A stretch of DNA of 64,000 bases from Blastocatellia bacterium (lineage in GTDB: Bacteria > Acidobacteriota > Blastocatellia > Chloracidobacteriales > Chloracidobacteriaceae): positions 62,001 to 126,000 of the forward strand of contig JAIBAN010000009.1 in the NCBI GenBank assembly GCA_019695185.1, given 5' to 3'. Position 1 is the stretch's first letter. Each line of letters starts with the position of its first letter. The notes under the pieces are model-generated. The model did not search any database, was not told the origin of the DNA, and saw only the letters and a program-made list of their open reading frames with translations. Shown piece after piece: positions 5,598 through 64,000 of the stretch. The position numbers were made by a program, and so were the translations under genes.

Positions 5598-5711
5598 GGA
5601 ATTGAGAATTGAGAATTGAGAATGAAAAACCTTTTCCAACTGAAACATGAGGTAAAAAACATCAACTCAGGAAAAGTGATTTCCGTCATTTTCAATTCTC
5701 AATTCTCAATT
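5598..5711. repeat. inverted heptamer element (TGAGAAT/ATTCTCA) between recF and gyrB
   Basis: Arms 5598-5624 (TGAGAAT units) and 5691-5711 (ATTCTCA units) are separated by a 66-bp unique spacer. The right arm contains the last codons and stop of recF. Confidence 0.85.
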
Positions 5712-18094: not shown

Positions 18095-18203
18095 AAGGAC
18101 TGAGGACTGAGGACTGAGGAACCAAGAACTCTTTCCTGATCGTAATTCTTGACCGACTTCAGAGAAACTCAGTCCTCAGTCCTCAGTCCTCAGTCCTCAG
18201 TCC

Positions 18204-18205
<2 letters not shown>
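18095..18205. repeat. inverted heptamer element (AGGACTG/CAGTCCT)
   Basis: Left arm 18095-18120 (three units), right arm 18168-18205 (five units), spacer about 47 bp. The right arm abuts the purA stop codon (18204-18206). Confidence 0.9.
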
Positions 18206-23916: not shown

Positions 23917-23917
23917 T

Positions 23918-24074
23918 TGAGAATTGAGAATTGAGAATTGAGAATTGAGAATTGAGAATTGAGAATTAAAACACTTGGGTTGGCCGTGATAACCTGCGCT
24001 TGCGCATTCATCCAGCCTGTAACCGCTTGATGTTCAAACATATCCTCTCAATTCTCAATTCTCAATTCTCAATT
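23918..24074. repeat. inverted heptamer element (TGAGAAT/ATTCTCA)
   Basis: Seven perfect TGAGAAT units (23918-23966) begin just after the smc stop. The facing arm of three to four ATTCTCA units (24046-24074) ends about 25 bp before the OsmC gene; spacer about 80 bp. Confidence 0.95.
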
Positions 24075-27978: not shown

Positions 27979-28896
27979 ATGTCAACCAATCAAACTTTAT
28001 TACTTGACCGTGCCCGTACTTATTTTGCCAATTTACAGGATGAAATCTGCCATGCCCTGGAAAACCTGGATGGACAGGCGACCTTCCGCGAAGACGTGTG
28101 GGAACGTCCCGGTGGTGGAGGCGGCAGAACCAGAGTGATTGAAGCAGGTCGGGTTTTTGAAAAAGGCGGGGTCAATTTTTCCTATGTTTTTGGCGACATG
28201 CCGGAAAAACTGGCCTCAAAAATGGCGGGCAGCGAAGGCTTGACCTTTGCGGCCACCGGGGTTTCGCTGGTGCTCCATCCGCGCAACCCGATGGTGCCGA
28301 CGGTTCATGCCAATTTTCGTTTTTTCCAACAAAAAACCACCGCCTGGTTTGGCGGTGGCGCGGATTTGACCCCGTACTACCCCTATCGTGAAGACGCAGT
28401 ACATTTTCACCGCACGCTGAAGGCAGCCTGCGATGGTTACGACCCTGATTACTATCCGCGTTTCAAGAAATGGTGCGACGAATATTTTTACCTGCCTCAT
28501 CGCAGGGAAACGCGCGGCGTGGGTGGTTTGTTTTTTGATTACCTCAAGGGCACGCCGGAGGAACTTGAACACACGTTCGCGTTTGTCCAGGGAGTGGGCA
28601 ACGCGTTCCTGCCCGCCTATCTGCCGATTGCCGCACAGCGTCACAGCGAACCGTTTACCGAGGCCGAGCGCGAACACCAACTTTTACGGCGCGGGCGCTA
28701 TGTTGAATTCAATTTGGTCTATGACCGGGGAACCCTCTTTGGGCTGGAAACCAACGGGCGCACCGAATCCATTTTAATGTCGCTGCCGCCGCTGGCCCGC
28801 TGGTCGTATGATTACCAACCGGCTCCCGGCTCCCGCGAAGCCGAGGCGATGGATTTCTATCGCCCGCATGATTGGCTTTCCGAAATTGAGAATTGA
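27979..28896 (+). CDS. hemF: oxygen-dependent coproporphyrinogen III oxidase
   Basis: 305 aa; converts coproporphyrinogen III to protoporphyrinogen IX using O2, so the organism can make haem aerobically. Characteristic blocks: VWERPGGGGGRTRVIE, VFEKGGVNFSYVFG, FAATGVSLVLHPRNP, VPTVHANFRFF, WFGGGADLTPYYPYREDA and RRGRYVEFNLVYDRGT. No SD is visible because a CAGTCCT array fills the leader. The C-terminus ends in TGAGAAT array sequence (…S-E-I-E-N-stop), so the final residues I-E-N are repeat-derived. Confidence 0.97.
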   Translation: MSTNQTLLLDRARTYFANLQDEICHALENLDGQATFREDVWERPGGGGGRTRVIEAGRVFEKGGVNFSYVFGDMPEKLASKMAGSEGLTFAATGVSLVLHPRNPMVPTVHANFRFFQQKTTAWFGGGADLTPYYPYREDAVHFHRTLKAACDGYDPDYYPRFKKWCDEYFYLPHRRETRGVGGLFFDYLKGTPEELEHTFAFVQGVGNAFLPAYLPIAAQRHSEPFTEAEREHQLLRRGRYVEFNLVYDRGTLFGLETNGRTESILMSLPPLARWSYDYQPAPGSREAEAMDFYRPHDWLSEIEN

Positions 28897-29058
28897 GAAT
28901 TGAGAATTGAGAATCAAAGGCAATTCTTTGTTTCACTGGATAGTGCGAATCAATATAAGGATTGCCGGAGAATTGAAAGCCCCTTTCCAAGCGGGTTGCT
29001 CCAAATTGTTTGCACCTGTAACCAGAGCCTCAATTCTCAATTCTCAATTCTCAATTCT
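28884..29058. repeat. inverted heptamer element (TGAGAAT/ATTCTCA)
   Basis: Left arm 28884-28914 contains the end of hemF; right arm 29030-29058 abuts the stop of the next (minus-strand) gene. Spacer about 115 bp. Confidence 0.9.
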
Positions 29059-29429
29059 TACTGGTTCGGCTGGGCGGCCACGCCTTGGTTAATCACTACA
29101 TTTTGGTCGGAGCCTTCGAAAGCAAACCCCTTCAATTCAAAACCACCGTCTTTGGCGGTCTGGTGAATTTCCGTGCGATAGGTCTTGCTCTGCCGGCCTT
29201 GGATGGCGGCTTTGGTGCGGAGCACTTCATTTTTCCCTTGGGACATAATGAAATCACCGGTTTTTTCATCGAATTTGACTTTATAATTGCCCTTTTTGAG
29301 TACAACTCCGTTGACGGTCATATCCTTGGTCAAGGTGACTTCTTTTTTGATTTCTCCAGCGAAGCTGACACCCGTCAACATGAGGCACATTGCACCGGCA
29401 AACAATGAACGAAACAGATTCTTTTTCAT
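29058..29429 (-). CDS. small secreted protein of unknown function
   Basis: 123 aa from the ATG at 29429 (AGGAG SD, 8-nt spacing). It has a clear signal peptide (MKKNLFRSLFAGAMCLMLTGVSFAG, cleavage after about residue 25) followed by a small beta-rich domain with TVNGVVLKKGNYKVKFDEKTGDF and KTYRTEIHQTAKDGG. Proteins of this style (secreted, DUF2911-like repeat of 'gn Y-x-V') occur widely in Acidobacteriota, but I do not recognise a defined function. A GGCGCA/TGCGCC hairpin (29465-29483) lies in the leader. Divergent from the Clp-N/GNAT gene. Confidence 0.75.
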   Translation of the reverse strand: MKKNLFRSLFAGAMCLMLTGVSFAGEIKKEVTLTKDMTVNGVVLKKGNYKVKFDEKTGDFIMSQGKNEVLRTKAAIQGRQSKTYRTEIHQTAKDGGFELKGFAFEGSDQNVVINQGVAAQPNQ

Positions 29430-37712: not shown

Positions 37713-38999
37713 ATGTCGGACGCTCACAACTCGATTCCAAAACCAACTGCATCGGGACAATTTGAAGAACTGATTTACGACTGGAATTTGGTCAACACCA
37801 CAACGCCGACGCGCACGGTTGAATTTGATGACGAAACCTTGCGCGATGGGTTGCAATGCCCTTCGGTCACCGACCCGCCGATTGAAAAAAAACTGGAGAT
37901 TCTGCATTTGATGGAATCGCTCGGCATTAACACCGCCGACCTGGGGTTGCCGGGTGCCGGGCCGCGAGCTGTGGCGGATGTCACGCGCCTCGTCCAGGAA
38001 ATCGTCAACCAGCGGATGAAAATCGTTCCGAATGCCGCAACCCGGACCCACAAAAACGACATTACCCCCATCATTGAAATTGCCAATCACGTGGGCATTC
38101 CCATCGAAGCCGCCATGTTTATCGGGTCCAGTCCGGTGCGGCAGTACACAGAGGATTGGACTCTGGACCATATGGTCCGGTTGACGGAGGACGCCGTCAG
38201 CTTTGCCGTTCAAAACGGGATTCCGGTGATGTATGTCACCGAAGACACGACCCGCGCCCATCCCGATACCATCCGGGCCTTGTACAAAGCCGCCATCAAC
38301 GCCGGAGCCTATCGTATCTGCATCTGCGACACGGTTGGCCATGCCACCCCTTACGGTGTGCGGCAACTGGTTTCCTTTGTCAAACAGGTGGTGGCCGAAA
38401 CCGGTGCAGACATTAAAATAGACTGGCATGGCCACCGGGACCGGGGCCTGGATGTCATCAACACGATTGCTGCTGTCGAAGCCGGTGTGGACCGGGTGCA
38501 TGGTGCCGGTCTGGGTGTTGGTGAACGGGCAGGCAACACTCCCATGGACCAGTTGCTGGTCAATCTGCACCTGATGGGGTATATCAACCGCGACCTGTCG
38601 CAACTGGGAGCCTATGTCAAAGCCGTCGCGGAAGCATGTCAGGTTCCAATTCCGTACAATTACCCGGTTTTCGGCTATGACGCATTCCGGACAGCCACCG
38701 GAGTTCATGCCGCCGCAGTCATGAAAGCCTTCCGGAAAGGGGACCACCAGTTGGCCAACCTGATTTATTCGGGTGTTCCGGCCCATCTGTTCGGACGGGA
38801 GCAGATGATTGAAATCGGTTCCATGAGTGGCAAATCCAATGTTGTTTTCTGGCTTGAACAACGCGGGCTCAAAGCCACGCCGGAACTGGTTGACCTGATT
38901 TTCAGCCGCGCCAAACAGGCGGACCATGTTTTTTCCGACCAGGAAGTATTTGACATCATCAAGAGCAATCAACAGACAGCCACCTCAACTGCGAATTGA
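37713..38999 (+). CDS. LeuA-like acyltransferase (2-isopropylmalate/homocitrate/citramalate synthase family)
   Basis: 428 aa, DRE-TIM metallolyase fold. Motifs: VEFDDETLRDGLQCPS (catalytic Arg and metal Asp), metal HxH in DWHGHRDRGLDVINT, and the signature HGAGLGVGERAGNTPMDQL. It condenses acetyl-CoA with a 2-oxoacid, but the substrate cannot be read from these motifs. It lacks the C-terminal allosteric LeuA domain of full-length (about 510 aa) 2-isopropylmalate synthase, so a specialised role is possible. GAGGAA precedes the ATG. The stop lies in the first TGAGAAT unit, following an N-residue tail T-A-T-S-T-A-N. Confidence 0.85.
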   Translation: MSDAHNSIPKPTASGQFEELIYDWNLVNTTTPTRTVEFDDETLRDGLQCPSVTDPPIEKKLEILHLMESLGINTADLGLPGAGPRAVADVTRLVQEIVNQRMKIVPNAATRTHKNDITPIIEIANHVGIPIEAAMFIGSSPVRQYTEDWTLDHMVRLTEDAVSFAVQNGIPVMYVTEDTTRAHPDTIRALYKAAINAGAYRICICDTVGHATPYGVRQLVSFVKQVVAETGADIKIDWHGHRDRGLDVINTIAAVEAGVDRVHGAGLGVGERAGNTPMDQLLVNLHLMGYINRDLSQLGAYVKAVAEACQVPIPYNYPVFGYDAFRTATGVHAAAVMKAFRKGDHQLANLIYSGVPAHLFGREQMIEIGSMSGKSNVVFWLEQRGLKATPELVDLIFSRAKQADHVFSDQEVFDIIKSNQQTATSTAN

Positions 39000-39113
39000 G
39001 AATTGAGAATTGAGAATTGAGAATCAGGAAAGATTCCCGTCAGCAGGCTGGAACCGTGATTCCTCACTTCGTTCAAGCACCGGTTTTCATTCTCAATTCT
39101 CAATTCTCAATTA
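38994..39113. repeat. inverted heptamer element (TGAGAAT/ATTCTCA)
   Basis: Left arm 38994-39024 carries the stop of the LeuA-like gene; right arm 39089-39113 ends 11 bp before the next start codon. Spacer about 65 bp. Confidence 0.9.
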
Positions 39114-43418: not shown

Positions 43419-43589
43419 ATGAAATGTCCAATTTGCGGAAAAGAAACCACCTGGGAAAATAACCCGACACGTCCCTTTTGCTCCGAACGCTGCCAGACCA
43501 TTGACTTGGGAAACTGGGCATCGGAGGAGTACCATATGCCGGCCTCAGCACCGGAACAACTGGAAAACATTGAAGAAATTGAGAATTGA
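43419..43589 (+). CDS. yacG: DNA gyrase inhibitor YacG
   Basis: A 56-codon gene, easily missed. The product begins [12 protein letters not shown], with Cys3 and Cys6, then [19 protein letters not shown] with Cys21 and Cys25, exactly the zinc-knuckle layout of YacG, followed by IP-type residues HMPASAP. Known YacG binds GyrB and inhibits gyrase; gyrB is 38 kb away in this window. The last residues (E-E-I-E-N) and the stop come from a TGAGAAT array. It lies 55 bp after the PIG-V-like gene, with no obvious SD. Confidence 0.88.
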
Positions 43590-43768
43590 GAATTGAGAAT
43601 TGAGAACCAAGTTCTGGACTCGAAAGTTCTTTGGTTTCCGATGAATTTTTTGTAAAAGCCGGGCCGGTGAACTTCATTTCCGGAACCAACCAGACAGGCA
43701 ATTCTGACTGCCCACACGGTTTCCATTCTCAATTCTCAATTCTCAATTCTCAATTCTCAATTCTCAAC
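43580..43768. repeat. inverted heptamer element (TGAGAAT/ATTCTCA)
   Basis: Left arm 43580-43606 (contains yacG stop), right arm 43734-43768 (about five ATTCTCA units), spacer about 130 bp. The right arm ends just before the pyruvate kinase SD. Confidence 0.9.
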
Positions 43769-45221: not shown

Positions 45222-45302
45222 CAAGGTCAGGGTTCAGGGTTCAGAGTTCAGGGTCCAGGGTCCAGGGTTCAGGGTTCAGGGTTGACTGGGGATTGCTTTT
45301 TT
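45222..45302. repeat. left arm of GGTTCAG inverted element plus unique extension
   Basis: About eight GGTTCAG/GGTCCAG units (45226-45280), then a unique stretch (inner end 45302). Positions 45277-45302 are perfectly mirrored by 45687-45712. Confidence 0.9.
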
Positions 45303-45420
45303 TCAGCGGGTCTCGACTGAACCTGAAAGAACGAGTCAGGACCGCCTGCGGCAACCTTGTCTTTCGTCATCAGAAGTTCATTGACCGGCACGGCGGCACG
45401 CATTCCACGCATTCCGGAGG

Positions 45421-45632
45421 AATGCCACCTGCTCCGGCAGGAGCAGATTCAGATAGCCAGGGTGTGGAGCGGAGCGCAACCCCTGGAAAACAGTTCCAGC
45501 CTGATTCCGCGCTCCGGCAGGAGCGCCATCTCTCCGTGGGGAACGCACTCCTGCCGGAGTGCGGGCGGATTGGGCATCCCAGTCCAGGGGTTGCGCTCCG
45601 CTTCACACCCTGGCTACCAGATGGCCTTCCTC
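45421..45632. mobile_element. MITE-like inverted-repeat element B
   Basis: Inner arms 45454-45486 and 45584-45616 (33 bp, one mismatch) carry the same TAGCCAGGGTGTGG-type block as element A. It contains three GCTCCGGCAGGAGC-type palindromes (45431-45444, 45511-45524, 45546-45561). The element lies in the loop between the two arms of a GGTTCAG element; no coding gene is supported here. Confidence 0.8.
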
Positions 45633-45686
45633 CGGAAGACTCCAAGGTATGGTCAAGCCGGTTCGAGTTCAATCGCTGGTTGGCCG

Positions 45687-45747
45687 AAAAAAGCAATCCC
45701 CAGTCAACCCTGAACCCTGGACCCTGAACCCTGAACCCTGAACCCAC
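45687..45747. repeat. right arm of GGTTCAG inverted element
   Basis: Mirror of 45222-45302: a 26-bp perfect unique extension (45687-45712) followed by five CTGAACC/CTGGACC units. It abuts the stop of the DUF3108-like gene. Confidence 0.9.
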
Positions 45748-52721: not shown

Positions 52722-54137
52722 TCAGGAAACTTTCTTCAAGCCGTATTCCTTGATTTTTTGTTTGAGGGTGGTCAATGAAATTCCCAGGGCTTTGGCGGTT
52801 TGAGTCTGGTTTCCCTGAAAAACGGCAAAGACCTCTGTGATATGACGGCGTTCCACTTCGGCAAGCGAGGGCAGGTCAGCAGATAGTGCCGGAGCGGGAG
52901 CCGGTGGTGGGCCAACATCAGGAGGACTGCCTTTGACCAACAGGCGGGAAGGGTACAGTTTTTCGTCATTGGCTAAAATCAGGCTCCGCTCAATGACATT
53001 CCGCAGTTCCCTGACGTTGCCGGGCCAGTGATACGCTTGCAACCGGCTGCACTCATCTTCCGCCAGCGTCAAAGCCCGCCCCGGTGCCAACAACCGGATA
53101 AAATGCCGGGCCAGAGCCGGAATGTCTATGCGTCGTTCGGCCAGCGAAGGTAGCGGCAGACGCAACACATTCAGCCGGTAATAAAGGTCCTGGCGGAGTT
53201 TTCCCTGGCGGATGGCAGCTTCCGGGTCGGAATTGGTGGCGGCTATGATTCGAACCCTGACCGGGATGCTGCGTTCCCCGCCCAGCCGTTTGATGCAATG
53301 TTCTTCCAGCACCGAAAGCAGCTTGGACTGCAAAGCAATCGGCATTTCCCCGATTTCGTCCAAAAAGAGCGTTCCGCCATGGGCCAATTCGAACACGCCT
53401 TTGCGGGTTGCGGTGGCCCCGGTGTAGGCCCCTTTTTCGGCTCCAAACAGTTCGGCTTCAATCAGGGATTCCGGCAAAGCAGCACAATTGACACTGATAA
53501 ACGGCCCCTTGGATTGCTGGGCATGGTGGATGGTGCGGGCCACCAACCCTTTTCCGGTTCCGGTTTCACCGGTAATCAAGATCGACGACGACACTGCTGC
53601 AGCACGGGCAATCAGTTCGCGGACCTCCATAACCGACGGGCTGTTTCCAACCAGACTCCATTCACTTTTTTCAGTTTCTTCAATGTAATCCTGCGCCTGT
53701 TTGAATTGTTGGAGCCCGGCCAGTTTTCGTTCAGCCTGGGCAATCCGGGCCAGATGCAGCGTGCGCTGACGTAACACCGGCCAATGGAGCGGTTTGGTAA
53801 TGTAGTCAGTGGCTCCGGCAGCAAATCCTTCGTCAATCAGGGCGGCATCCACCATCGCCGTGATGAGGAGAATGGGAACGGTTGCCCCGCCGGGTAGTTT
53901 GCGGATGTGGCTACAGGCCTCGATTCCGGTGAGTCCCGGCATATTGACATCCATTAAAATTACTTCGGGCTGCATTTCCTGAAACAACGAAATGGCCTGG
54001 TGCCCGTCCTGGGCTTCGACAACCCGGTGCCCGTTTTGTTTGAACATAATGCGGGCCATCGCCCGGATATTGGCATCGTCGTCAACCACCAAAATGACTG
54101 AAGCAGGTTCAGCCCTGAGAGCACCGGTACCATTCAT
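52722..54137 (-). CDS. sigma-54-dependent response regulator (NtrC family)
   Basis: 471 aa from the ATG at 54137 (AGGA SD; the ATG at 54140 is an alternative; TTG extension rejected). Seen: receiver domain with VILVVDDDANI and phosphoacceptor Asp in ILMDVNMPGLTGI, AAA+ domain with Walker A GETGTGKGL, the sigma-54 contact loop GAYTGA (a Tyr variant of GAFTGA), LFLDEIGEMP, and a Fis-type HTH (TQTAKALGISLTTLKQKIKEYGL). It activates sigma-54 promoters when phosphorylated; the cognate kinase is unknown. It is divergent from the porin gene whose leader holds a consensus-like sigma-54 promoter. Confidence 0.95.
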   Translation of the reverse strand: MNGTGALRAEPASVILVVDDDANIRAMARIMFKQNGHRVVEAQDGHQAISLFQEMQPEVILMDVNMPGLTGIEACSHIRKLPGGATVPILLITAMVDAALIDEGFAAGATDYITKPLHWPVLRQRTLHLARIAQAERKLAGLQQFKQAQDYIEETEKSEWSLVGNSPSVMEVRELIARAAAVSSSILITGETGTGKGLVARTIHHAQQSKGPFISVNCAALPESLIEAELFGAEKGAYTGATATRKGVFELAHGGTLFLDEIGEMPIALQSKLLSVLEEHCIKRLGGERSIPVRVRIIAATNSDPEAAIRQGKLRQDLYYRLNVLRLPLPSLAERRIDIPALARHFIRLLAPGRALTLAEDECSRLQAYHWPGNVRELRNVIERSLILANDEKLYPSRLLVKGSPPDVGPPPAPAPALSADLPSLAEVERRHITEVFAVFQGNQTQTAKALGISLTTLKQKIKEYGLKKVS

Positions 54138-54690
54138 CATATTCCTACTCGCACATCGCCCCGGAAGGCAGTCATGGTGCGCACTGCCAATCAAGGAAAT
54201 TTCCCCGTTTGCAATCCGGGTGGTCCAGCAGGCAAAACCCAAGGCATTGCTTCTTCAGAAAGCCGTCCGTCTTTTTTCCGGCAACAGACAGACTTGCCAC
54301 AGAAACGATACATGAGGTGGAAATCCTGGGAGGGCAGGGTTGCAGGTTGCTCGGCGAGGTCTCACTCGGTCCGAAAAAACCCATGGTCGGTTTTTAGTAG
54401 GCGGTTTCCGCCCAGTTCATTCTTTGATTGTTGTTTTTTGACCAAAACCGAGAAGCATTATTTCACAAGAAACCAAGCTTGAAAATATTTTTTCCAGTCC
54501 GGCCAAGGCAGTTTTAGGACAGTGGAGGCTTGGCCCATCAAGTGCCACAAGGAAACCGGGACAACGGCGGCGGCAATCCGGTCATTCCTTTTGTGGCATA
54601 CCGTTTGCACCTTTTGAGGGCAAATAACAACGTATCCGGTCGCATAGACGGCCAAACGACAATCAGCACCTGTTTTTGTGAGTGAGACCT
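54138..54690. other. regulatory region between the sigma-54 activator and the porin gene
   Basis: About 550 bp with no supported gene. It contains the sigma-54 promoter at 54594-54609. No obvious activator-binding inverted repeat was identified. Confidence 0.6.
54594..54609 (+). promoter_or_regulatory. sigma-54 promoter
   Basis: TGGCATA-CCGT-TTGCA fits the -24/-12 consensus (TGGCACG-N4-TTGCW) with correct spacing. The predicted start of transcription is near 54620, 70 bp upstream of the porin ATG. Confidence 0.75.
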
Positions 54691-56211
54691 ATGCCGAATA
54701 CAATGAAATGCACTTTTGTGCGGATGGCCATCGGCTGTCTGTTCTGGGTGGTGGCCTTCACCACCACTCTTGCCGCCCAGCAAAAAAGCGATTATCCCCC
54801 CATCAAAGCCGGCCCGGTCGAATTCTCCGGCTCATTACGGTTGCGCAACGAAAACTGGGGCTGGTTTGAGGTTCCGGGACGCGACAGCCAGCAGAATTTT
54901 CTGGGAGGAACCTTTCGCTTTTCCATCAAAAGTTCCCACCTGCTCCGCAAAAACCACACGTTGGATTGGCAAGCTGAACTGGAAGCCCCGTTTTTGGCCG
55001 GGCTCCCCCAAAATGCTTTGGCTCCGGCTCCACAAGGAGCCTTGGGACTGGGGGGCACCTATGTTTCCGCCAGCGGTAACGAACGAGCGGCTGTGTTCCT
55101 CAAACAGGCGTTTGTCCGTTATGTGGTCAAAGGGGAGAAAGTCACTTCCGCTTTCCGGGTCGGACGTTTTGAGTTTTCCGATGGTGCGGAACTGGCAGCG
55201 CCCGACCCCACTGTCGCGGCACTCAAACGCCAACGTATTCAGGAACGCCTGATTGGTCCTTTTGGATTCACTCATGTCGGACGCAGTTTCGACGGCGGCC
55301 AGCTTTCGTTTTCCACGGCAGCCTCCAATCTGACAGTTTTCGCAGCCCGCCCAACGGAAGGCGTCTTTCAAGTTGACGGGTTACGGCAGGTTCCCAGCGT
55401 ATCGTTGGTGTATGGAGCCTTCAGCCATGCCCTGCATAAGGAAAAAGTGGCTGACAAACTGACGCCGCGCGGTGAGTTCCGGGTTTTCGGCCTGTGGTAT
55501 CGGGACGGGCGGTCCATCCTCAAAACCGACAACCGCCCTGCCCCGCTCCGTGAAGCGGACCGCCGCAACGACATCCAATTGACCACCATCGGCGGGCATT
55601 ACCTGCGGGCGTTTACACTCGGCACAGGAACGGCAGACGTCCTTTTCTGGGGAGCCGGTCAGTTTGGCGATTGGGGCAATCTGAGCCATCGGGCCGGGGC
55701 AGTCGCCGTGGAGGGCGGGTATCAGCCCAAGCTCAAATGGAAGCCCTGGATTCGAGGCGGATACTTCCGGTCGAGCGGTGACGGCAATCCCACCGACAAC
55801 CGCCACGGAACCTTTTTCCAGGTGCTGCCCACCCCGCGTATTTATGCCCGCACCCCGTTTTTCAACCTCATGAACAACGAAGACAGTTTCGCCTCGCTGA
55901 CCTTGCGGCCCAACAAAAAGTTCAATCTCCGGTCCGACTTTCACAAACTGCGCCTGAGCAACAGCCGGGATTTGTGGTACCTCGGCGGCGGGGCCTTTCA
56001 AAAACAGACTTTTGGTTTTGTAGGCCGCCCGGCCAACAACCAGCGCAATCTCGGCGGGTTGCTGGATGTCAGCGTGGATTATCAACTCAATCCGAGAGTG
56101 ACCATTTCAGGCTACTACGGCCATATCTTTGGCGGACGGCTGGTTTCCAGCATTTACCCGGCAGGGCAAAACGGCCATCTGGGTTATGTCGAACTGACCG
56201 TGCGGTTCTAA
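54691..56211 (+). CDS. alginate-export-like outer membrane beta-barrel protein
   Basis: 506 aa from the ATG at 54691 (GTG at 54682 also possible). Signal peptide with cleavage near TLAAQ (about residue 30), then a beta-barrel rich in alternating aromatic strands (GSLRLRNENWGWF, FRFSIKSSHLLRKNHTLDW, WIRGGYFRSSGDGNPTDNRHG, DVSVDYQLNPRVTISGYYGHIF) ending in Phe (ELTVRF), the outer-membrane insertion signal. It resembles the alginate export/porin family; the sugar transported is unproven. First gene after the sigma-54 promoter; the next gene begins 19 bp downstream. Confidence 0.85.
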   Translation: MPNTMKCTFVRMAIGCLFWVVAFTTTLAAQQKSDYPPIKAGPVEFSGSLRLRNENWGWFEVPGRDSQQNFLGGTFRFSIKSSHLLRKNHTLDWQAELEAPFLAGLPQNALAPAPQGALGLGGTYVSASGNERAAVFLKQAFVRYVVKGEKVTSAFRVGRFEFSDGAELAAPDPTVAALKRQRIQERLIGPFGFTHVGRSFDGGQLSFSTAASNLTVFAARPTEGVFQVDGLRQVPSVSLVYGAFSHALHKEKVADKLTPRGEFRVFGLWYRDGRSILKTDNRPAPLREADRRNDIQLTTIGGHYLRAFTLGTGTADVLFWGAGQFGDWGNLSHRAGAVAVEGGYQPKLKWKPWIRGGYFRSSGDGNPTDNRHGTFFQVLPTPRIYARTPFFNLMNNEDSFASLTLRPNKKFNLRSDFHKLRLSNSRDLWYLGGGAFQKQTFGFVGRPANNQRNLGGLLDVSVDYQLNPRVTISGYYGHIFGGRLVSSIYPAGQNGHLGYVELTVRF

Positions 56212-56230
56212 AGCGGGGAGCGGGGTTGCT

Positions 56231-57253
56231 ATGCCAGAACAAAAAATTACCGAGTTGATGCAGGCTGGAATTCAGGCAGTCAAGCAGGGTGAAAAAAGTC
56301 AGGCCAGGGTGCTGTTTCTGGAAGTCACGGAATTGCATCCCAAACATGAAACCGTCTGGCTGTGGCTCGCCCAAATTACGGAAATTCCACGGCTCAAAAT
56401 CACCTATCTGCGCCGGGCCTTTCACATCACGCCGGACCATAAACCGGTTCGGGACTCGTTCCGCACAGCCCTCATGCAGGAAGGCGTCCATTTGGCCAAA
56501 ACCGGCAACAAGACGGAAGCCTTCGGCTTTTTTGCGGAAATCACAGGGTTTGACGAAACATTCGAACCGGCCTGGCTGTGGCTGGCGTCCCTGGCCGAAG
56601 AACCAGCCGCCACCAGAGACTATCTCAAGCGGGTTCTGACCCTCAATCCGGCCAACCAAAACGCCAAAAGCTGGCTGGAACGACTCCCCAGGGAATCCGC
56701 TCCCCAACCGACTGCGGTTGTGGCAGTGGTTCCGCCAGCGGCCTCCGCACCAGTGTCAACCCCAACCACTCCGGTCGCATTGCCAACGGTTGAACCTGCG
56801 CTGCCCCCGGAAACGCCTCCGGCTTTCCCGGTCCGACATAAAGGACTGGTGCTGACCATAGATGACAGTTCCATCATTCGACAGGCAGTTGTTTTGACCC
56901 TGGAGAAAGAAGGCTTCAAGGTGCTGGAGGCCGAAAACGGGATGGAAGCCCTGACCATTCTGAACGACATCGTGCCGGACCTCATCCTGCTCGACATCAA
57001 TATGCCCATGATGGACGGCTATGAAGTTTGCAAAGTGATTCGCAAAAGCCAGCATGCCCGTCATGTGCCGGTGGTTATGCTGTCAGGCAAAGACGGCTTC
57101 TTCGATAAGGTCAAGGGGAAAATGGCCGGTTCGACCGAGTATCTGACCAAGCCCTTCAACCCCGAACAATTACGCAAAACCGTTGAAAAACACGTGCAAG
57201 CCGCCAAACCGGAGGAGGTAATTCCGGGTCGGTCGGTGTTTCGGCTGGTCTGA
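56231..57253 (+). CDS. TPR-like protein with C-terminal receiver domain (PilG-like)
   Basis: 340 aa. N-terminal part (1-150) with TPR-like helices (AGIQAVKQGEKSQARVLFLEV; WLWLASLAEEPAATRDYLKRVLTLNPANQNA), a Pro/Ala/Val-rich linker (about 155-205), and a receiver domain (about 210-325) with VLTIDDSSIIR, phosphoacceptor Asp in LILLDINMPMMDGYEV, and K in YLTKPFN. Likely output or adaptor of the chemosensory system encoded downstream, comparable with PilG of twitching motility. It follows the porin gene with a 19-bp gap. An inverted AGGACTG element lies after it. Confidence 0.88.
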   Translation: MPEQKITELMQAGIQAVKQGEKSQARVLFLEVTELHPKHETVWLWLAQITEIPRLKITYLRRAFHITPDHKPVRDSFRTALMQEGVHLAKTGNKTEAFGFFAEITGFDETFEPAWLWLASLAEEPAATRDYLKRVLTLNPANQNAKSWLERLPRESAPQPTAVVAVVPPAASAPVSTPTTPVALPTVEPALPPETPPAFPVRHKGLVLTIDDSSIIRQAVVLTLEKEGFKVLEAENGMEALTILNDIVPDLILLDINMPMMDGYEVCKVIRKSQHARHVPVVMLSGKDGFFDKVKGKMAGSTEYLTKPFNPEQLRKTVEKHVQAAKPEEVIPGRSVFRLV

Positions 57254-57257
57254 AATT

Positions 57258-57382
57258 TTAAGGACTGAGGGCTGAGGGCTGAGTTTTTGCCTTGGACCTC
57301 AATCCTCAGCTTCGCACAGATACTGTGGCAAAACAAACCAGCCAAATTAGGGCAATAATCAGCCCTCAGTCCTCAGTCCTGG
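57258..57382. repeat. inverted heptamer element (AGGACTG/CAGTCCT)
   Basis: Left arm 57258-57285 (units GGACTGA, GGGCTGA, GGGCTGA), right arm 57360-57382 with the same GGGCTGA variant innermost in mirror order. Similarity continues a few bases into the spacer (TTxTTGCC). Confidence 0.85.
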
Positions 57383-57389
57383 ATTTGAT

Positions 57390-58211
57390 ATGGCTTCAAC
57401 AGGCGCACTTTTTCTAGTGATGGCGGATTCACCGTACCGGCAGGCAGTGGTGGAAGCATGTGCAACGGTCTGTCCGGTGATTGTGGCGGAAACCCTCCGG
57501 GTGGCTGTTGAGGAATATGAAACGCATGCAGTTGCCATCCGGGCGGTGGTGACGGACCTGATTATGGAGGCCACTGAAACCAGTCGGTTTGTTGAATGGT
57601 TGCGCACGGTCAACCCGCTGGTTCCGATTCTGGTGGTGCCGGGAATACGGGTTCATCCGGAAGTCCTCCAGGTACTGGCTTTACCCAGCGTGCTGTTGGT
57701 TTCGGGAACCACGGACCCAGGCATGGTTTCTGCTTTAGCTCTGCATTTGTCCCAAACTCCCGGCGAAGCTGCCGCTGCTTCGGCAGAAATACCGGAAGTT
57801 GACGCTCCAACCTGCATTTTCACACTTTTTCATTCAGGAGAAATTATGGCGAAAGAAACGATTTTGGTGGTGGATGACAGTCCCCTTGAATTGCGCCTGG
57901 TCACCAACCTGCTGACCGCCCAGGGGTATCGGGTCCTGACGGCAGGTGACGGCGACGAGGCCATTGCCAAAGCCCAGCAGGAAAAGCCCCATCTCATGGT
58001 GCTTGATGTAGTCATGCCCAAACAAAACGGGTTTGAAACCTGCCGGGCCATCAAGGAAACCCCGGCGACCAGCAATATCAAGGTGGTGCTCCTGACCAGC
58101 AAAAACCAGCGAAGTGACCGGTTTTGGGGCATGTCGCTCGGAGCCGACGAATACCTGACCAAACCATTTCAGGACCAGGATTTGCTCAATGCCATCACCA
58201 AACACCTTTAG
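57390..58211 (+). CDS. tandem receiver protein (degenerate plus PilH-like), possible dual start
   Basis: 273 aa. The first part (about 1-135) has a receiver-like fold but no phosphoacceptor Asp at the usual place (VTDLIMEATETSRFVEWL). The second part (from Met153 at 57846) is a normal PilH/CheY-type receiver: TILVVDDSPLELRLV, LMVLDVVMPKQNGFET (Asp), VVLLTSKNQ and EYLTKPFQ. AGGAG sits 7 nt upstream of that internal ATG, so a separate 121-aa PilH-like protein may also be made. Within the chemosensory cluster; partner of ChpA-like kinase is inferred. Confidence 0.8.
   Translation: MASTGALFLVMADSPYRQAVVEACATVCPVIVAETLRVAVEEYETHAVAIRAVVTDLIMEATETSRFVEWLRTVNPLVPILVVPGIRVHPEVLQVLALPSVLLVSGTTDPGMVSALALHLSQTPGEAAAASAEIPEVDAPTCIFTLFHSGEIMAKETILVVDDSPLELRLVTNLLTAQGYRVLTAGDGDEAIAKAQQEKPHLMVLDVVMPKQNGFETCRAIKETPATSNIKVVLLTSKNQRSDRFWGMSLGADEYLTKPFQDQDLLNAITKHL
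57846..58211 (+). CDS. alternative internal product: PilH-like single receiver
   Basis: In-frame internal start ATG 57846 preceded by TCAGGAGAAATT. It would yield a 121-aa receiver beginning MAKETILVVDDS, matching the usual size and start of PilH/CheY proteins. The sequence shows both options; which is used is unknown. Confidence 0.5.
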   Translation: MAKETILVVDDSPLELRLVTNLLTAQGYRVLTAGDGDEAIAKAQQEKPHLMVLDVVMPKQNGFETCRAIKETPATSNIKVVLLTSKNQRSDRFWGMSLGADEYLTKPFQDQDLLNAITKHL

Positions 58212-58306
58212 CCATCAATGGCGACCGAACCGGTGACTTGGTGCATGGTTTCTGGGGCGGAGCGGTGTGACTCAGATGAAACAGTACCGGAAAGGGAGAC
58301 AGTTGT

Positions 58307-59080
58307 ATGGCTTTGGACGAATATGGCGAACTGCCTGAATTGGTGGCGGAACCGGCCCCTGAATTTGAACTGCCTGCGTGTGTGACCACACCTGCTTCGG
58401 AAGCCGAATTGCCTGCCGGTTTTTCGGCCTCCCTGCCGGTCACACCGGAGGCGTTTGAACTTCCGCCGGAAATGCTGCCTCAGCCGGAACCCGCCGAACC
58501 GGTGCCGACAGCGGCTGAACCGGTCAACCCGCTCGCGGTCTTGATGGGAACCATGCAACAGGAACTGGAGACCCATCCGCGTGCCATGCCGGTGACGCCA
58601 ACTCGAACGGCTCCCGAAGCCGGCACAGTCCGCAAATATCTGGGGTTTGTGCTGCATGGCCGCCGTTTTGCCGTGCCAATGACCGGGATTGCCGAAATCG
58701 GACTGGTTCCTCCGGTGACCATGCTGCCGGGTGCTCCGCAGTGGTTGCGCGGGGTTGCCAATCTGCGGGGCGACATTGTTTCCGTTGTGGATTTACAAGT
58801 CTTTATGGGCGGAGAACCAACCTTGACGGATGCGTTTCACAATCGCCTGCTGGTTGCCCAATCTGCCCGGCGCGACCTGGCTGCCGGATTGGTGGTGGAG
58901 CGGGTAACGGGCCTTGTGAAATGCGCGGAGCATGAAATCGAAGCTGTGGCCTTTGATACGACCGATGCCATTTCGCCCTTTGTGCAGGGGGTTTGTGACC
59001 ATGCCACCGGCCTGCTGACCGTGCTGGACCTGAACCGGCTGTTGACGGCTCCGGAGTTCCGCTGTTTTGAACCGTTTTAA
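58307..59080 (+). CDS. CheW-like chemotaxis coupling protein (PilI-like)
   Basis: 257 aa; GGGAGA SD. An N-terminal acidic/Pro-rich extension (1-105) precedes a CheW domain: FVLHGRRFAVPMTGIAEIG, MLPGAPQWLRGVANLRGDIVSVVDLQVFMG, and LTVLDLNRLLTAPEF. It should couple the MCP to the CheA-type kinase in the inner-membrane array. The long N-terminal extension is unusual for CheW. Fits order PilG/PilH/PilI/PilJ/ChpA. Confidence 0.92.
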   Translation: MALDEYGELPELVAEPAPEFELPACVTTPASEAELPAGFSASLPVTPEAFELPPEMLPQPEPAEPVPTAAEPVNPLAVLMGTMQQELETHPRAMPVTPTRTAPEAGTVRKYLGFVLHGRRFAVPMTGIAEIGLVPPVTMLPGAPQWLRGVANLRGDIVSVVDLQVFMGGEPTLTDAFHNRLLVAQSARRDLAAGLVVERVTGLVKCAEHEIEAVAFDTTDAISPFVQGVCDHATGLLTVLDLNRLLTAPEFRCFEPF

Positions 59081-59210
59081 GTACCGTGTGCGGGAATTAC
59101 GCCGCCACTTTCCAAACCGAGACGTGCTGATTCACCATCGGGGCTGGCATTAAAAAACATTGAAATTGCAGCGTTTACCTTGAGGTTGAGACCTTAAGCG
59201 GGGAGCAGTT

Positions 59211-61478
59211 ATGTTCAAATTACGTGACCTGAAAATCTGGCAGAAACTGACGCTCATCATTGTGGCAACCGGGTTGTTGTTGCCGGTGGTGGGGTATCTG
59301 GTGGTGTCCGACCGCTACACCCGTGTGGCAGCGGCCCGCCGCGAACTGCAAGGAGTAGCCTATCTCAAACCCTTGAAACTGTTTATCGAACATCTGCCCC
59401 AGCATCGCGGCACAGCCAACGGGTTTCTCAACGGAAACACAGCCCTCAAAGACCGGCTGACCGCCCTCGGCGATAAACTGGACCAGGACGTGAAAGCCAT
59501 CGAGGCAGCGGACCTGCGGTTGGGAGCCGAACTGGGCACCACCTCGAAATTTACCGACATCAAAGAAAAATGGCGGGTCCTGAAATCACAGACACCGACC
59601 CTGGCTCCCAAAGAAAGTTTTGACCGGCATACGGCTCTGATTGCGGAAACCAACGACTTTATCGCTTTGATTGGAGACGTTTCAGGATTGATTCTGGACC
59701 CGGAGCGGGATACCTACTATGCGGCTTTTCTGGTAACCAGCTCAATCCCCAACACGGCGGAAAGCCTGGGGCAGTTACGCGGTTACGGCAACGGATTGGC
59801 CGCGCGCAAGGCGGTTACGCAGGACGAATTCGGGCGCTTTTCCGCCATCCAGGAAGTGGTCCGGGCCAACCGCGACGGCTATATGCGCAGTATCAAAGCA
59901 GCGGCCCAATCCAACCCGGATTACGAACGGCAACTTTTACCCAAGTACAACGACCTCACCAGCGCCATCAACGCCTATCTCGAACTGGGCGACAAACGAC
60001 TTATCAAAACCACCACCATTGACATCGAAGGAGCCGAATATTTCGACACCGGCACACGGGTGATTGACAAGCTGTTTGCCCTGTTTGACGAACAAATCAA
60101 TGTGTTGGAAACCAGGCTTCAGGCTCGGACCGACAGCCTCCAGCGGGGCATGTTGGTTGTGATTGGGGCGCTCCTCCTGGCAATTACGGTCACCGTGCTT
60201 TTGGCGGCCTACATTGCCCGCACCATTGCCCAGCAATTGGGGTCGGTGGCGCAGGTGGCGCAGGAAGTGCAAAAGGAAAATCTGGCGGCACGAGCCACGG
60301 TCCTCAACCGGGACGAACTGGGCGAGGTGGCAACGGCTGTCAACCAAATGCTTGACAACACCGTCAACCTGATTCAGACCCGCGAACATGAACGTGACCA
60401 ACGGCAAAAAGAGCGCGACGAACTGGAAGACGAAATCATCAAGCTGCTCATGGAAATCCGCGACATCGCCAAAGGCGACCTGACCGTCAAGGCTGAGGTT
60501 TCGGCGGGTCCGACCGGAGCACTGGCCGACTCGTTCAATTACACGGTGACCGAATTGCGCAAACTCATCGGACGCATCAACGAAGTGACCGCCAAAGTCA
60601 ACCGGGCCGCCGATAAGATTCAGGGTACCACCATCACACTGGCACGCGGCAGCGAATCCCAGTTGGCGCAAATCGTGACCACCTCCGACGGCCTGCGCGC
60701 CATGGCCGATTCGATGACCGAAGTTTCCAACCGGGCCGTGGAAACCGTGCATGTGGCCGAACAATCGCTCCAAAAAGCCCAGACCGGCATGAAAGCCGTG
60801 GAAAAAACCATCACCGGTATGAACGGCATCCGCGACCAGGTGCAAAAAACCGCCAAACGTATCAAGCGGCTCGGCGAAAGCTCGCAGGAAATCGGCGAAA
60901 TCGTGCAGTTGATTAGTGAAATCGCCAACCAAACCAGCATTCTGGCGCTCAATGCCTCAATTCAGGCAGCCATGGCCGGAGAGGCCGGACGCGGGTTCGC
61001 CGTCGTGGCCGAAGAAGTCGAACATCTGGCCGACCGCTCTTCCGAAGCCACCAAACGGATTGCCGGACTGATTAAAGCCATTCAGACGGAAACCAACGAA
61101 GCCGTGACCGCCATGGAAGACACAACCCGCGAAGTGGTCAACGGTTCGGTGGTGGCCAACGAAGCCGGTCAATCGCTGGTTGAAATCCAGCAGGTGTCAA
61201 ACCAACTGGCGCACATCATTCAGACCATCTCCGAAGCCTCGCTCAAACAGGCAGCCAACTCCGAATGCCTGGCCCAGGCCATGACTGGAATTTCCACCAT
61301 TACCCAGGAAACCACCGAAGGAACCCAGCAGGTGGTGCTCTCAGTCAACGAACTGGCCGTGCTGGCCGGAAACCTGCGCGAATCCATCAGCACGTTCAAG
61401 GTTTCAAAGGCTCCAGCCAACGTCAATCTGTACGCTCCGGGAGCAACCGCGACAACTCCGGAAATGGTAATGGCCTAG
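59211..61478 (+). CDS. methyl-accepting chemotaxis protein (PilJ-like)
   Basis: 755 aa with GGGGAG SD. TM1 (about 13-32), a periplasmic/extracytoplasmic sensor helix-rich domain (about 33-310), TM2 (about 313-334), HAMP, a second HAMP-like linker (EIIKLLMEIRDIAKGDL), and the MCP signalling domain with the hairpin tip QTSILALNASIQAAMAGEAGR-type and FAVVAEEVEHLADRS. It lies upstream of the CheA gene. The N-terminal domain resembles PilJ-type sensors; the ligand is unknown. Confidence 0.95.
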   Translation: MFKLRDLKIWQKLTLIIVATGLLLPVVGYLVVSDRYTRVAAARRELQGVAYLKPLKLFIEHLPQHRGTANGFLNGNTALKDRLTALGDKLDQDVKAIEAADLRLGAELGTTSKFTDIKEKWRVLKSQTPTLAPKESFDRHTALIAETNDFIALIGDVSGLILDPERDTYYAAFLVTSSIPNTAESLGQLRGYGNGLAARKAVTQDEFGRFSAIQEVVRANRDGYMRSIKAAAQSNPDYERQLLPKYNDLTSAINAYLELGDKRLIKTTTIDIEGAEYFDTGTRVIDKLFALFDEQINVLETRLQARTDSLQRGMLVVIGALLLAITVTVLLAAYIARTIAQQLGSVAQVAQEVQKENLAARATVLNRDELGEVATAVNQMLDNTVNLIQTREHERDQRQKERDELEDEIIKLLMEIRDIAKGDLTVKAEVSAGPTGALADSFNYTVTELRKLIGRINEVTAKVNRAADKIQGTTITLARGSESQLAQIVTTSDGLRAMADSMTEVSNRAVETVHVAEQSLQKAQTGMKAVEKTITGMNGIRDQVQKTAKRIKRLGESSQEIGEIVQLISEIANQTSILALNASIQAAMAGEAGRGFAVVAEEVEHLADRSSEATKRIAGLIKAIQTETNEAVTAMEDTTREVVNGSVVANEAGQSLVEIQQVSNQLAHIIQTISEASLKQAANSECLAQAMTGISTITQETTEGTQQVVLSVNELAVLAGNLRESISTFKVSKAPANVNLYAPGATATTPEMVMA

Positions 61479-61487
61479 AGAGAGAGA

Positions 61488-61628
61488 AATTGAGAATTGA
61501 GAATTGAGAGTGAAACCCGGTATTCAGGATTCAGAGTCCAGGATTTACCAGTAAAGAAAAATTAAAGGTTCTCAATTCTCAATTCTCAATTCTCAATTCT
61601 CAATTCTCAATTCTCAGTTCTCAATTCC
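61488..61628. repeat. inverted heptamer element (TGAGAAT/ATTCTCA)
   Basis: Left arm 61488-61508, right arm 61569-61628 with about eight ATTCTCA units (one ATTCTCAG variant), ending just before the SD of the CheA gene. Spacer about 60 bp. Confidence 0.9.
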
Positions 61629-61642
61629 CCCAGGAGGAAAAT

Positions 61643-64000
61643 ATGGCAACGGCCCACCCTGAATTGCTTCACGATTTGGTGGCGGAGGTGCGGGATTTTC
61701 TTCCCCGGATTACCGAACACCTGCGCCGTTTTTGGCAGGATGCAAGCCTGCTTGACGATGCCCATCAAGCCTACCGGCTGCTCCATACGATTGTGGGAGA
61801 TGCCGCCATTGTCGGGCAGATGGCCCTCAGCCGCTCGGCATATTTTGGTGAAACCGTGTTGGAGGAACTGACTTCCGGCACCCTGGAACGCAGTCCGGAA
61901 ACCGGCGAATTTTTGGGAAACCTGCTGACGGAAATGGACGGATTTGTAGCCGACATTAAGGAAGCCGACCCCCAAGGGCTGCTTCTGGGCACGGTGGTCG
62001 CCTACCGCCGGCTCAAAAATCTGCCCGAAGCCGATGACGAAGCAGCGGTGTGTGAAGCCTTGCAGGTACTGGAAATCAACGAGGCTCCGACAGTTGAACC
62101 GAGTGAAGCCCTTGTTGCCGGACCGGACCTGCCGTTGGAAGACGAAGAGGAAGAGGCTCCGTTTCCTGAGCTGATGGATATTTTCAACCTGGAAGCTCCG
62201 GAAAAAATGGACCTGATTGCCGCCCGGCTGCCGGAATATCTCCGCCATCCGGAGTCACAGCGGGAAACCTTGCAGGAAATCCGGCGCGCCGTGCATACCC
62301 TCAAGGGCGGAGCCAACATGGTCGGCTTGAAATCCGTGGCACAACTGACACACCGGATGGAAGACCTGCTGGACCGGCTCTATGAAGCCGAAGTGACTTT
62401 TACGGCAGCACTGGGCCAAACCCTGGTGGCAGCGGTTGATACGCTGCACGGATTGGTCGAAGGCAAAGGCAACAAGACCGAAATCCGGTTCCATCTGCGG
62501 CAGGTGCTGGCAGAATTTGACACGATTTTACAGACCGAACCGGCCCCGGCCCCGCTCACGGCAGAACTGCCCCCGTTGCCCGCAGCCGTGGCCGAAAACA
62601 GTCACCCGGCGGCGGAAGCAGCTTCGGAAGCCGGAGAAACCGAGCTTTACGTTCGGGTTCCGCTCAAAAAGCTGGATGAAATGGTGCGCCTGATGAGCGA
62701 ACTGGTCATCAACCGGTCCACCTTTGAGCGCCACGTGGGTGTCTATGCGGAAAATGTTACGGAACTGAGCGTCAGCGCCCGCCAGATGAAACGGGTGACT
62801 GCCCGGCTCGAAACCGAATATGAGGTGGCCACCCTGGGCAGCGGGCGGATGGCAGCCGTGCTGCCCACGGGTAATGCGTTCCCGCGCAGCACATTTCAAA
62901 CGGAGTTCGATGACCTGGAATTCGACCGCTACAATGAATTTCACTTGCTGACCCGGCGGATTACCGAAGGAAACGGCGATATTGATGCCATCGGGCACCG
63001 CTTGCAGATGTTGAACGGTGATTTTGACGCCGCTGTGAATCGGTTGGGACGCCTGACCGGCGAATTGCAGGACAAACTGATGCACCTTCGCATGGTGCCC
63101 TTCTCCTCCCTTGCCATGCGGCTGGAGCGGACTGTCCGCATGGCGGCGGGAACATGCCGCAAATCCGCTCAACTGGTCTTTGAAGGGGAAGCCGTCGAAT
63201 TGGACAAGGCCGTCATTGAAGCCCTGGCCGACCCGTTGGAGCACATGCTCCGGAACGCGGTTGACCACGGGTTGGAACTTCCTGACCGGCGGCTGGCGGT
63301 GGGCAAAGCCGAAACCGGCGTGGTTCGGGTTTCAGGCCGCTATGAAGGTGCTGAAGTTGTGATTCGGGTGACAGACGACGGGGCCGGACTGTCGCCGCAT
63401 CACCTGCGTGAAAAAGCCCTGGCTCTGGGCTGGGTTTCAGAAAGCGAAGCGACATCCCTCACACCGGAAGCGTTGTTGTCTTTGATTTTCCAACCCGGCT
63501 TCAGCACCGCCGCCCGGCTGACCGAAATCAGCGGACGGGGCGTGGGGATGGATGTGGTCAAAGCCACTGTGCAAAAACTGAAAGGCGTCATTACGGTTGA
63601 GTCGGCACCCGGCATGGGAACCACCTTTACCCTGCGGCTGCCGATGACGCTTGCCGTCACCAAGGCTTTTTTGGTGCGCGTGGGCAGCGAACGCTACGCG
63701 GTTCCCTTTAATCTGGTCGCCCGGATTGCCCAGCTTCCGGCCCGCTCGGTCGAAATGGTCGGACATCAGCCGATGGTCCGCATTGAAGGCAAAATGATTC
63801 CGTTGACCCGGCTGGAACAGGCGCTCCACCTTGATGAACCTGTGTGTGAGCCGGAAAACCTCATGCTTTCCCTGCTGGTGGTGCAAATCGGGAATCGGCG
63901 CTCGGCCCTGGCGGTGGATGAAATCCTTTCGCAGCGGGAAATCGTGGTGAAACCGTTGGGAACGCATATCCGCTATTACCGGGGGATTTCGGGGGCAACC
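61643..64000 (+). CDS. CheA/ChpA-type chemotaxis histidine kinase (3' truncated by window)
   Basis: The ATG at 61643 has a strong GGAGG SD; the frame stays open to the window end (786 codons), so the gene continues outside. Seen: two Hpt-type modules with His48 (LLHTIVGDAAIVG, weak) and His218 (VHTLKGGANMVG, canonical), a dimerisation region (LYVRVPLKKLDEMVRLMSEL), HATPase with N538 in EHMLRNAVDHGLE, DDGAGLSPH and SGRGVGMDVVKATV, then the start of a CheW-like P5 domain (AFLVRVGSERYAVPFNLV). The extra Hpt suggests ChpA-like. Final gene of the chemosensory cluster seen here. Confidence 0.93.
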   Translation, partial: MATAHPELLHDLVAEVRDFLPRITEHLRRFWQDASLLDDAHQAYRLLHTIVGDAAIVGQMALSRSAYFGETVLEELTSGTLERSPETGEFLGNLLTEMDGFVADIKEADPQGLLLGTVVAYRRLKNLPEADDEAAVCEALQVLEINEAPTVEPSEALVAGPDLPLEDEEEEAPFPELMDIFNLEAPEKMDLIAARLPEYLRHPESQRETLQEIRRAVHTLKGGANMVGLKSVAQLTHRMEDLLDRLYEAEVTFTAALGQTLVAAVDTLHGLVEGKGNKTEIRFHLRQVLAEFDTILQTEPAPAPLTAELPPLPAAVAENSHPAAEAASEAGETELYVRVPLKKLDEMVRLMSELVINRSTFERHVGVYAENVTELSVSARQMKRVTARLETEYEVATLGSGRMAAVLPTGNAFPRSTFQTEFDDLEFDRYNEFHLLTRRITEGNGDIDAIGHRLQMLNGDFDAAVNRLGRLTGELQDKLMHLRMVPFSSLAMRLERTVRMAAGTCRKSAQLVFEGEAVELDKAVIEALADPLEHMLRNAVDHGLELPDRRLAVGKAETGVVRVSGRYEGAEVVIRVTDDGAGLSPHHLREKALALGWVSESEATSLTPEALLSLIFQPGFSTAARLTEISGRGVGMDVVKATVQKLKGVITVESAPGMGTTFTLRLPMTLAVTKAFLVRVGSERYAVPFNLVARIAQLPARSVEMVGHQPMVRIEGKMIPLTRLEQALHLDEPVCEPENLMLSLLVVQIGNRRSALAVDEILSQREIVVKPLGTHIRYYRGISGAT

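Follow-up and report, generated by a model that had tools for sequence, protein, structure and literature searches.

The DNA considered here (the window, a stretch of 64,000 nucleotides at G000:C34:62001-126000) comes from the 8.33 Mb draft genome of a Blastocatellia bacterium (222 contigs; G000 below). Its final 11 kb carry genes for a predicted outer-membrane porin and for a chemosensory array of the Pil-Chp kind, with a sigma-54 activator gene divergent to them. A first-pass annotation had described these elements, all of which we find in the sequence, and had proposed from them that surface polysaccharide export and Pil-Chp-like signalling are regulated together; our results suggest a different reading, namely that the locus may be a sigma-54-controlled nitrate/nitrite response unit, in which a porin is combined with a chemosensory array. 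We regard the chances of this as about even. The features are as follows, with positions beyond the window edge given as L002.

52722..54242, minus strand: NtrC-type sigma-54 activator with receiver, AAA domain with GAYTGA loop and Fis-type helix-turn-helix; likely start ATG 54140
54141..54593, no strand: divergent intergenic region of 0.45 kb, the expected place of activator sites; imperfect dyads only
54594..54609, plus strand: candidate sigma-54 -24/-12 promoter TGGCATACCGTTTGCA, from motif scan and spacing
54682..56211, plus strand: outer-membrane porin, Alginate_exp family (PF13372), from Pfam, the context of relatives and a fold search on a low-confidence model
56231..57253, plus strand: tetratricopeptide repeat (TPR) plus receiver protein in the PilG position; such a gene opens Chp-like clusters in the class
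57390..58211, plus strand: receiver protein in the PilH position; its N-terminal ~145 residues resemble a degenerate receiver (label by eye)
58307..59080, plus strand: CheW in the PilI position, from Pfam
59211..61478, plus strand: membrane chemoreceptor (methyl-accepting chemotaxis protein, MCP) with NIT sensor domain, HAMP and MCP signalling domain, from Pfam
61491..61627, no strand: heptamer-repeat inverted element between MCP and CheA, a strong RNA hairpin directly 5' of the CheA ribosome-binding site
61643..64000 and on to L002:12504, plus strand: CheA with two Hpt, H-kinase_dim, HATPase, CheW and a C-terminal receiver; crosses the window edge
L002:12517-13464, after CheA: CheW2
Downstream of CheW2: PilZ-domain gene on the opposite strand, then a propeller-plus-protein-kinase gene

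The order receiver, receiver, CheW, MCP, CheA is that of Pil-Chp, and sequence and domains support the labels PilG-, PilH-, PilI- and ChpA-like given earlier to the same-strand genes after the porin. The label PilJ-like holds for position and signalling domain but not for the sensor, because the sensor domain is NIT; a search of MCP residues 1-337 at E ≤0.1 found NIT only, and no PilJ domain. The likeness to the Pseudomonas aeruginosa Pil-Chp system extends to two receivers, CheW, MCP and a CheA with more than one Hpt and a C-terminal receiver, and likewise to pilus ATPases in the genome (six type IV pilus retraction ATPases over cut-off in G000). The window locus differs from that system in having a NIT sensor for PilJ, a TPR region on the first receiver and no CheR/CheB, as well as in the attached porin and sigma-54 activator. 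CheR or CheB domains were found neither in the cluster genes nor in the next genes scanned. With the canonical Chp-like clusters of the Blastocatellia (G000 contig 12, G003, G011, G052, G026 and G033) the cluster has in common the TPR-receiver, receiver, CheW, MCP, CheA and CheW2 genes, although not every gene was found in each; the canonical clusters of G000 and G003 carry CheR and CheB, and CheA and MCP of the window, G001 (a sister genus) and G012 fall in a clade of their own, separate from those of the canonical clusters (support 100/100). Porin and Chp genes together had been called a non-standard arrangement, and indeed no porin adjoins any of the canonical clusters that were read in the class. 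Near Chp-like genes lie three of the four porin copies of the family; the cluster of one of them, G003, is of the canonical lineage, its porin being ~7 kb away and adjoining a receiver-protein-kinase gene, whose kinase domain shares 52-53% identity with the one encoded just beyond the window cluster, downstream. A protein downstream of the cluster (L002:14833-18546) combines a two-component-regulator propeller, Y_Y_Y and a Ser/Thr kinase domain in a single chain.

The porin scores 65.4 bits against Pfam Alginate_exp (cut-off 25.2), and in a fold search with its structure model AlgE entries took the top 17 places. That model is of low confidence (mean predicted local distance difference test score, pLDDT, 55.6), so the AlgE-like matches are taken as indicating fold class only. 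The porin is thus like AlgE in Pfam family and best fold matches, but it is only 13-15% identical to it, and its relatives stand in a nitrate/nitrite gene context. Searches of the PDB by single sequence and by profile gave nothing usable, and a plasmid search gave no match. To describe the context of relatives we counted 16 loci from outside the family, with porins of 45-56% identity and at least one readable neighbour each; left out were G054 (a fragment at a contig end), a 51-residue piece on G041 contig 249 (which adjoins NrfHA), more distant relatives (22-30% identity), and L004, L005, L007 and L009, which duplicate the loci of G052 (three copies) and G022. The gene next to the porin is a nitrate/nitrite gene in 10 of the 16: NrfAH in five (G052, one copy; G050; G022; G033; G047), NarK together with a NasA-type reductase in two (G052, one copy; G037), NrtBD or NrtDB in two (G052, one copy; G026) and a copper nitrite reductase, over the NCBIfam cut-off, in one (L008, a Terriglobia metagenome-assembled genome). 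For NrfA and NarK the label is that of the best match, at scores under the curated cut-offs, whereas NrtD, NrtB and copper nitrite reductase exceed theirs. A remote relative (26% identity, L162 of G010) directly precedes NrfH and NrfA, and the nitrate/nitrite link is therefore suggested to reach the wider porin family. Genes for nitrate and nitrite reduction (NasC/NasA-like, NarK-like and NrfAH) are also encoded in G000; the NasA-type and NrfAH genes present in both G000 and G003 lie away from the porins. Literature searches for an alginate-export porin linked to nitrate in Acidobacteria, and for the Pfam name in connection with porins and nitrate, found no paper, and a search on nitrate porins returned nothing to the point.

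The chemoreceptor provides a second line of evidence. Its periplasmic part scores 41.5 bits against Pfam NIT (cut-off 24.9), the sole NIT match in the genome. Across 158 genomes of the class, NIT matches occur in five (four over cut-off), in every case inside an MCP of a Chp-like cluster, and in four of the five the porin is present as well. Of eight aligned receptors, five (window, G012, G003, G052 and G026) retain both the helix-1 HRG motif (YRG in G003) and the helix-5 QLRG-type motif; the canonical G000 receptor, that of G011 and a second one of G026 each lack at least one of the two. A helix-1 arginine is presumably part of the nitrate pocket of NasR, and the receptor motifs here presumably correspond to the pocket residues of that protein. 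In helix 5 of NasR, E175 and R176 were predicted to join in the nitrate pocket (PMC7496416). McpN of P. aeruginosa is likewise a receptor proposed to sense periplasmic nitrate; it differs in having a PilJ domain and measured nitrate binding, whereas the window receptor has a NIT domain and a predicted ligand. A PDB search with the sensor region (single sequence and profile) returned no NIT structure and nothing usable, and a structure model of this region was discarded (mean pLDDT 48.2).

Part of the arrangement recurs in the sister genus. On a G001 contig the activator diverges from the porin, which is followed after 17 bp by the TPR-receiver gene and then by the contig end; in the window the corresponding gap measures 19 bp. 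On another G001 contig lies a gene for an MCP that shares 73% identity with the window MCP over 318 residues, and CheA follows it. No terminator-like sites on the plus strand were found in the gaps between the window cluster genes. The MCP-CheA element has a predicted hairpin of -58 kcal/mol (z -4.5) and gaps between several Chp genes are 95-164 bp, so that one transcript need not extend through CheA. With respect to the earlier proposals, conservation in relatives holds for the activator, the porin, the short gap and the TPR-receiver gene in the sister genus but not for the G012 cluster, with no porin match in a genome 83% complete; co-regulation is plausible for the porin and Chp-like genes, given the short gap in two genera, the retained activator and the lack of a plus-strand terminator-like site, whereas its polysaccharide part is not supported.

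The divergent activator matches Pfam Response_reg, Sigma54_activat and HTH_8, all over cut-offs, and GAYTGA can be read in its sequence, in line with its first description. The G001 relative that adjoins the porin is 50-53% identical; the best relative in bits is from G011 (53%), in a different context without a porin. G000 has 49 matches to the sigma-54 activator domain, of which roughly 37-40 are strong; an initial count of ~150 was rejected because receiver-only matches had also been counted. The divergent region shares no 9-mer with its sister-genus counterpart. Given that RpoN is encoded in G000 along with ~40 activators, sigma-54 control of the locus is plausible.

The candidate promoter has exact GG-N10-GC spacing (GG 54595-54596, GC 54607-54608) and ends 72 bp upstream of the porin GTG at 54682 (alternative start ATG 54691), consistent with the ~70 bp noted at first; transcription is predicted to start at ~54620. 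A published account gives the consensus as TGGCACG-N4-TTGC(T/A) (PMC7910581); the site reads TGGCATA-N4-TTGCA, with two mismatches to TGGCACG and an intact -12 element. Its core, TGGCA-N6-TTGCW, occurs once in the window on both strands, against 0.235 expected in shuffles. By a position score with weights that we set ourselves from the general consensus, TGGCATACCGTTTGCA reaches 12.3, ranking third among the upstream regions of 100 genes; as 27 of 2270 overlapping 261-bp stretches of G000 (1.2%, ~1 in 85) score as high, the site by itself is a hint and falls short of proof. Upstream of the second porin copy of G000 there is a site scoring 12.5, second among the 100 and ~92 bp from the likely ATG of that copy, and the G001 porin has TGGCACG-N4-TTGTC, imperfect in the -12 C, ~63 bp before its likely ATG (score 9.5, matched by 28 of 622 stretches, 4.5%). 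These two sites are independent of the choice made in the first-pass annotation, and each falls in the 1-5% range. Elsewhere in the genome, a sigma-54-like site, CTGGAACAGTTGTTGCT, lies at L137:10450 on contig 82, 111 bp before a 1263-residue open reading frame, and came top of the 100 upstream regions.

As to promoter use, substrate, ligand, transcript length and output, we infer the following. The orphan NtrC-type activator would bind upstream in the 0.45 kb divergent region and would switch on sigma-54 polymerase at 54594-54609, giving a transcript predicted to encode the porin and the Chp-like array. The porin would pass nitrate/nitrite, or similar small anions, across the outer membrane, and the array receptor would sense periplasmic nitrate/nitrite via its NIT domain, the signal passing from receptor to CheW and CheA and then to the TPR-receiver and receiver proteins, with type IV pili or a second messenger as the probable output. 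Since the sole predicted nitrate/nitrite sensor of the genome belongs to the gene set that the porin heads, uptake and sensing may share one control.

Several observations weigh against this proposal. The gene next to the porin is not a nitrate gene in six of the 16 loci (G014, G034, G018, G041, G040 and L006), although in G040 the porin is broken into pieces and a NasA-type reductase lies ~6.5 kb away, and on G041 contig 295, scored as a miss, there is an ABC ATPase with 37% identity to NrtD ~1.2 kb downstream. Within the family, none of the four porin copies adjoins nitrate genes, the G000 nitrate cluster lacks a porin, and a tree places the family porins outside the clade of nitrate-linked ones; on these grounds a nitrate/nitrite role by kinship is likely, but not certain. 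G012 (a genome 83% complete) has a sister cluster with a NIT receptor and no porin match. With regard to ligand, a P. aeruginosa receptor with a NIT domain failed to bind nitrate (PMC6381276). As to control, the promoter taken alone is near chance level, the site of the G003 porin copy is weak (score 8.0; 83 of 964 stretches), a shared activator binding site sought upstream of the four family porin copies was not found, and the transcript may be terminated or attenuated at the hairpin before CheA.

The alternative that survives best, though we consider it unlikely, is that the porin serves as a general channel, or as one for some other small solute, that came to its position by chance rearrangement and is controlled separately, the Chp-like genes having a promoter of their own. 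The spacing between several of the Chp genes and the hairpin ahead of CheA are consistent with this, as are the G012 cluster without a detected porin and the second G000 porin copy, beside which there is no Chp cluster; the short porin/TPR-receiver gap in two genera, the conserved divergent activator and the fact that each of the three family genomes with the porin has a copy near Chp genes argue the other way.

A further possibility extends the nitrate/nitrite proposal rather than contradicting it, but is somewhat more doubtful still: CheA of the cluster might (de)phosphorylate the divergent orphan activator, such that the array would control its own operon. The activator has a full-length receiver and is kept beside the porin in G001, and the only histidine kinase gene beside it is that of CheA. 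As in the Che3-CrdA system of Myxococcus xanthus, chemosensory genes occur together with an NtrC-like sigma-54 regulator; the Che3 unit is not known to include a porin. Precedent comes from CrdA, an NtrC-like sigma-54 regulator under CrdS and CheA3 (PMC3510030); unlike the window cluster, M. xanthus Che3 has CheB3 and CheR3, and CrdS also acts on CrdA. Adjacency and an orphan receiver speak for the proposal; against it, the partner kinase could be encoded elsewhere, and the activator is one of ~40 in the genome. We would give slightly lower odds again to a complete self-controlling circuit, in which the NIT array, via CheA, would set activator phosphorylation and thereby sigma-54-dependent expression of its own nitrate/nitrite porin and array; if true, a chemosensory system without methylation enzymes of its own would tune outer-membrane permeability to the ion that it senses.

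The first-pass proposal that the porin exports an alginate-like polymer while the Chp genes steer pili is improbable and should, from the gene context, give way to the nitrate/nitrite reading: the Alginate_exp match over cut-off, the AlgE entries heading the fold search and the pilus retraction ATPases agree with it, but the porin relatives lie in nitrate/nitrite operons, the identity to AlgE is low and on a poor model, and no polysaccharide synthesis gene was found among the Pfam-scanned neighbours (the whole genome was not searched for these or for alginate genes).

If the nitrate/nitrite proposal is right, it unites outer-membrane nitrate/nitrite entry, chemosensory arrays and sigma-54 control, which are usually studied apart. 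It also suggests a function for the group of Alginate_exp-matching porins that recurs in nitrate/nitrite operons of Acidobacteriota, and makes the question of NIT-domain ligands testable in a context that predicts the ligand.

The element between MCP and CheA is one of six inverted heptamer-array pairs in the window, each consisting of (AATTGAG)n, ~60-120 bp and (CTCAATT)n, with cores that seem unrelated by eye (5599-5708, 23916-24074, 28884-29060, 38993-39109, 43577-43767 and 61491-61627). The 21-mer CTCAATTCTCAATTCTCAATT has 496 + 389 occurrences in the genome, and its reversed control has 0. In each of the two Chp clusters of G000, one such element comes after the MCP gene. Other facing heptamer arrays, with different units, are present at 18096-18204 and 45227-45745 (AGGACTG / CTCAGTC; TCAGGGT / AACCCTG), and the facing-heptamer design is therefore not confined to one unit.
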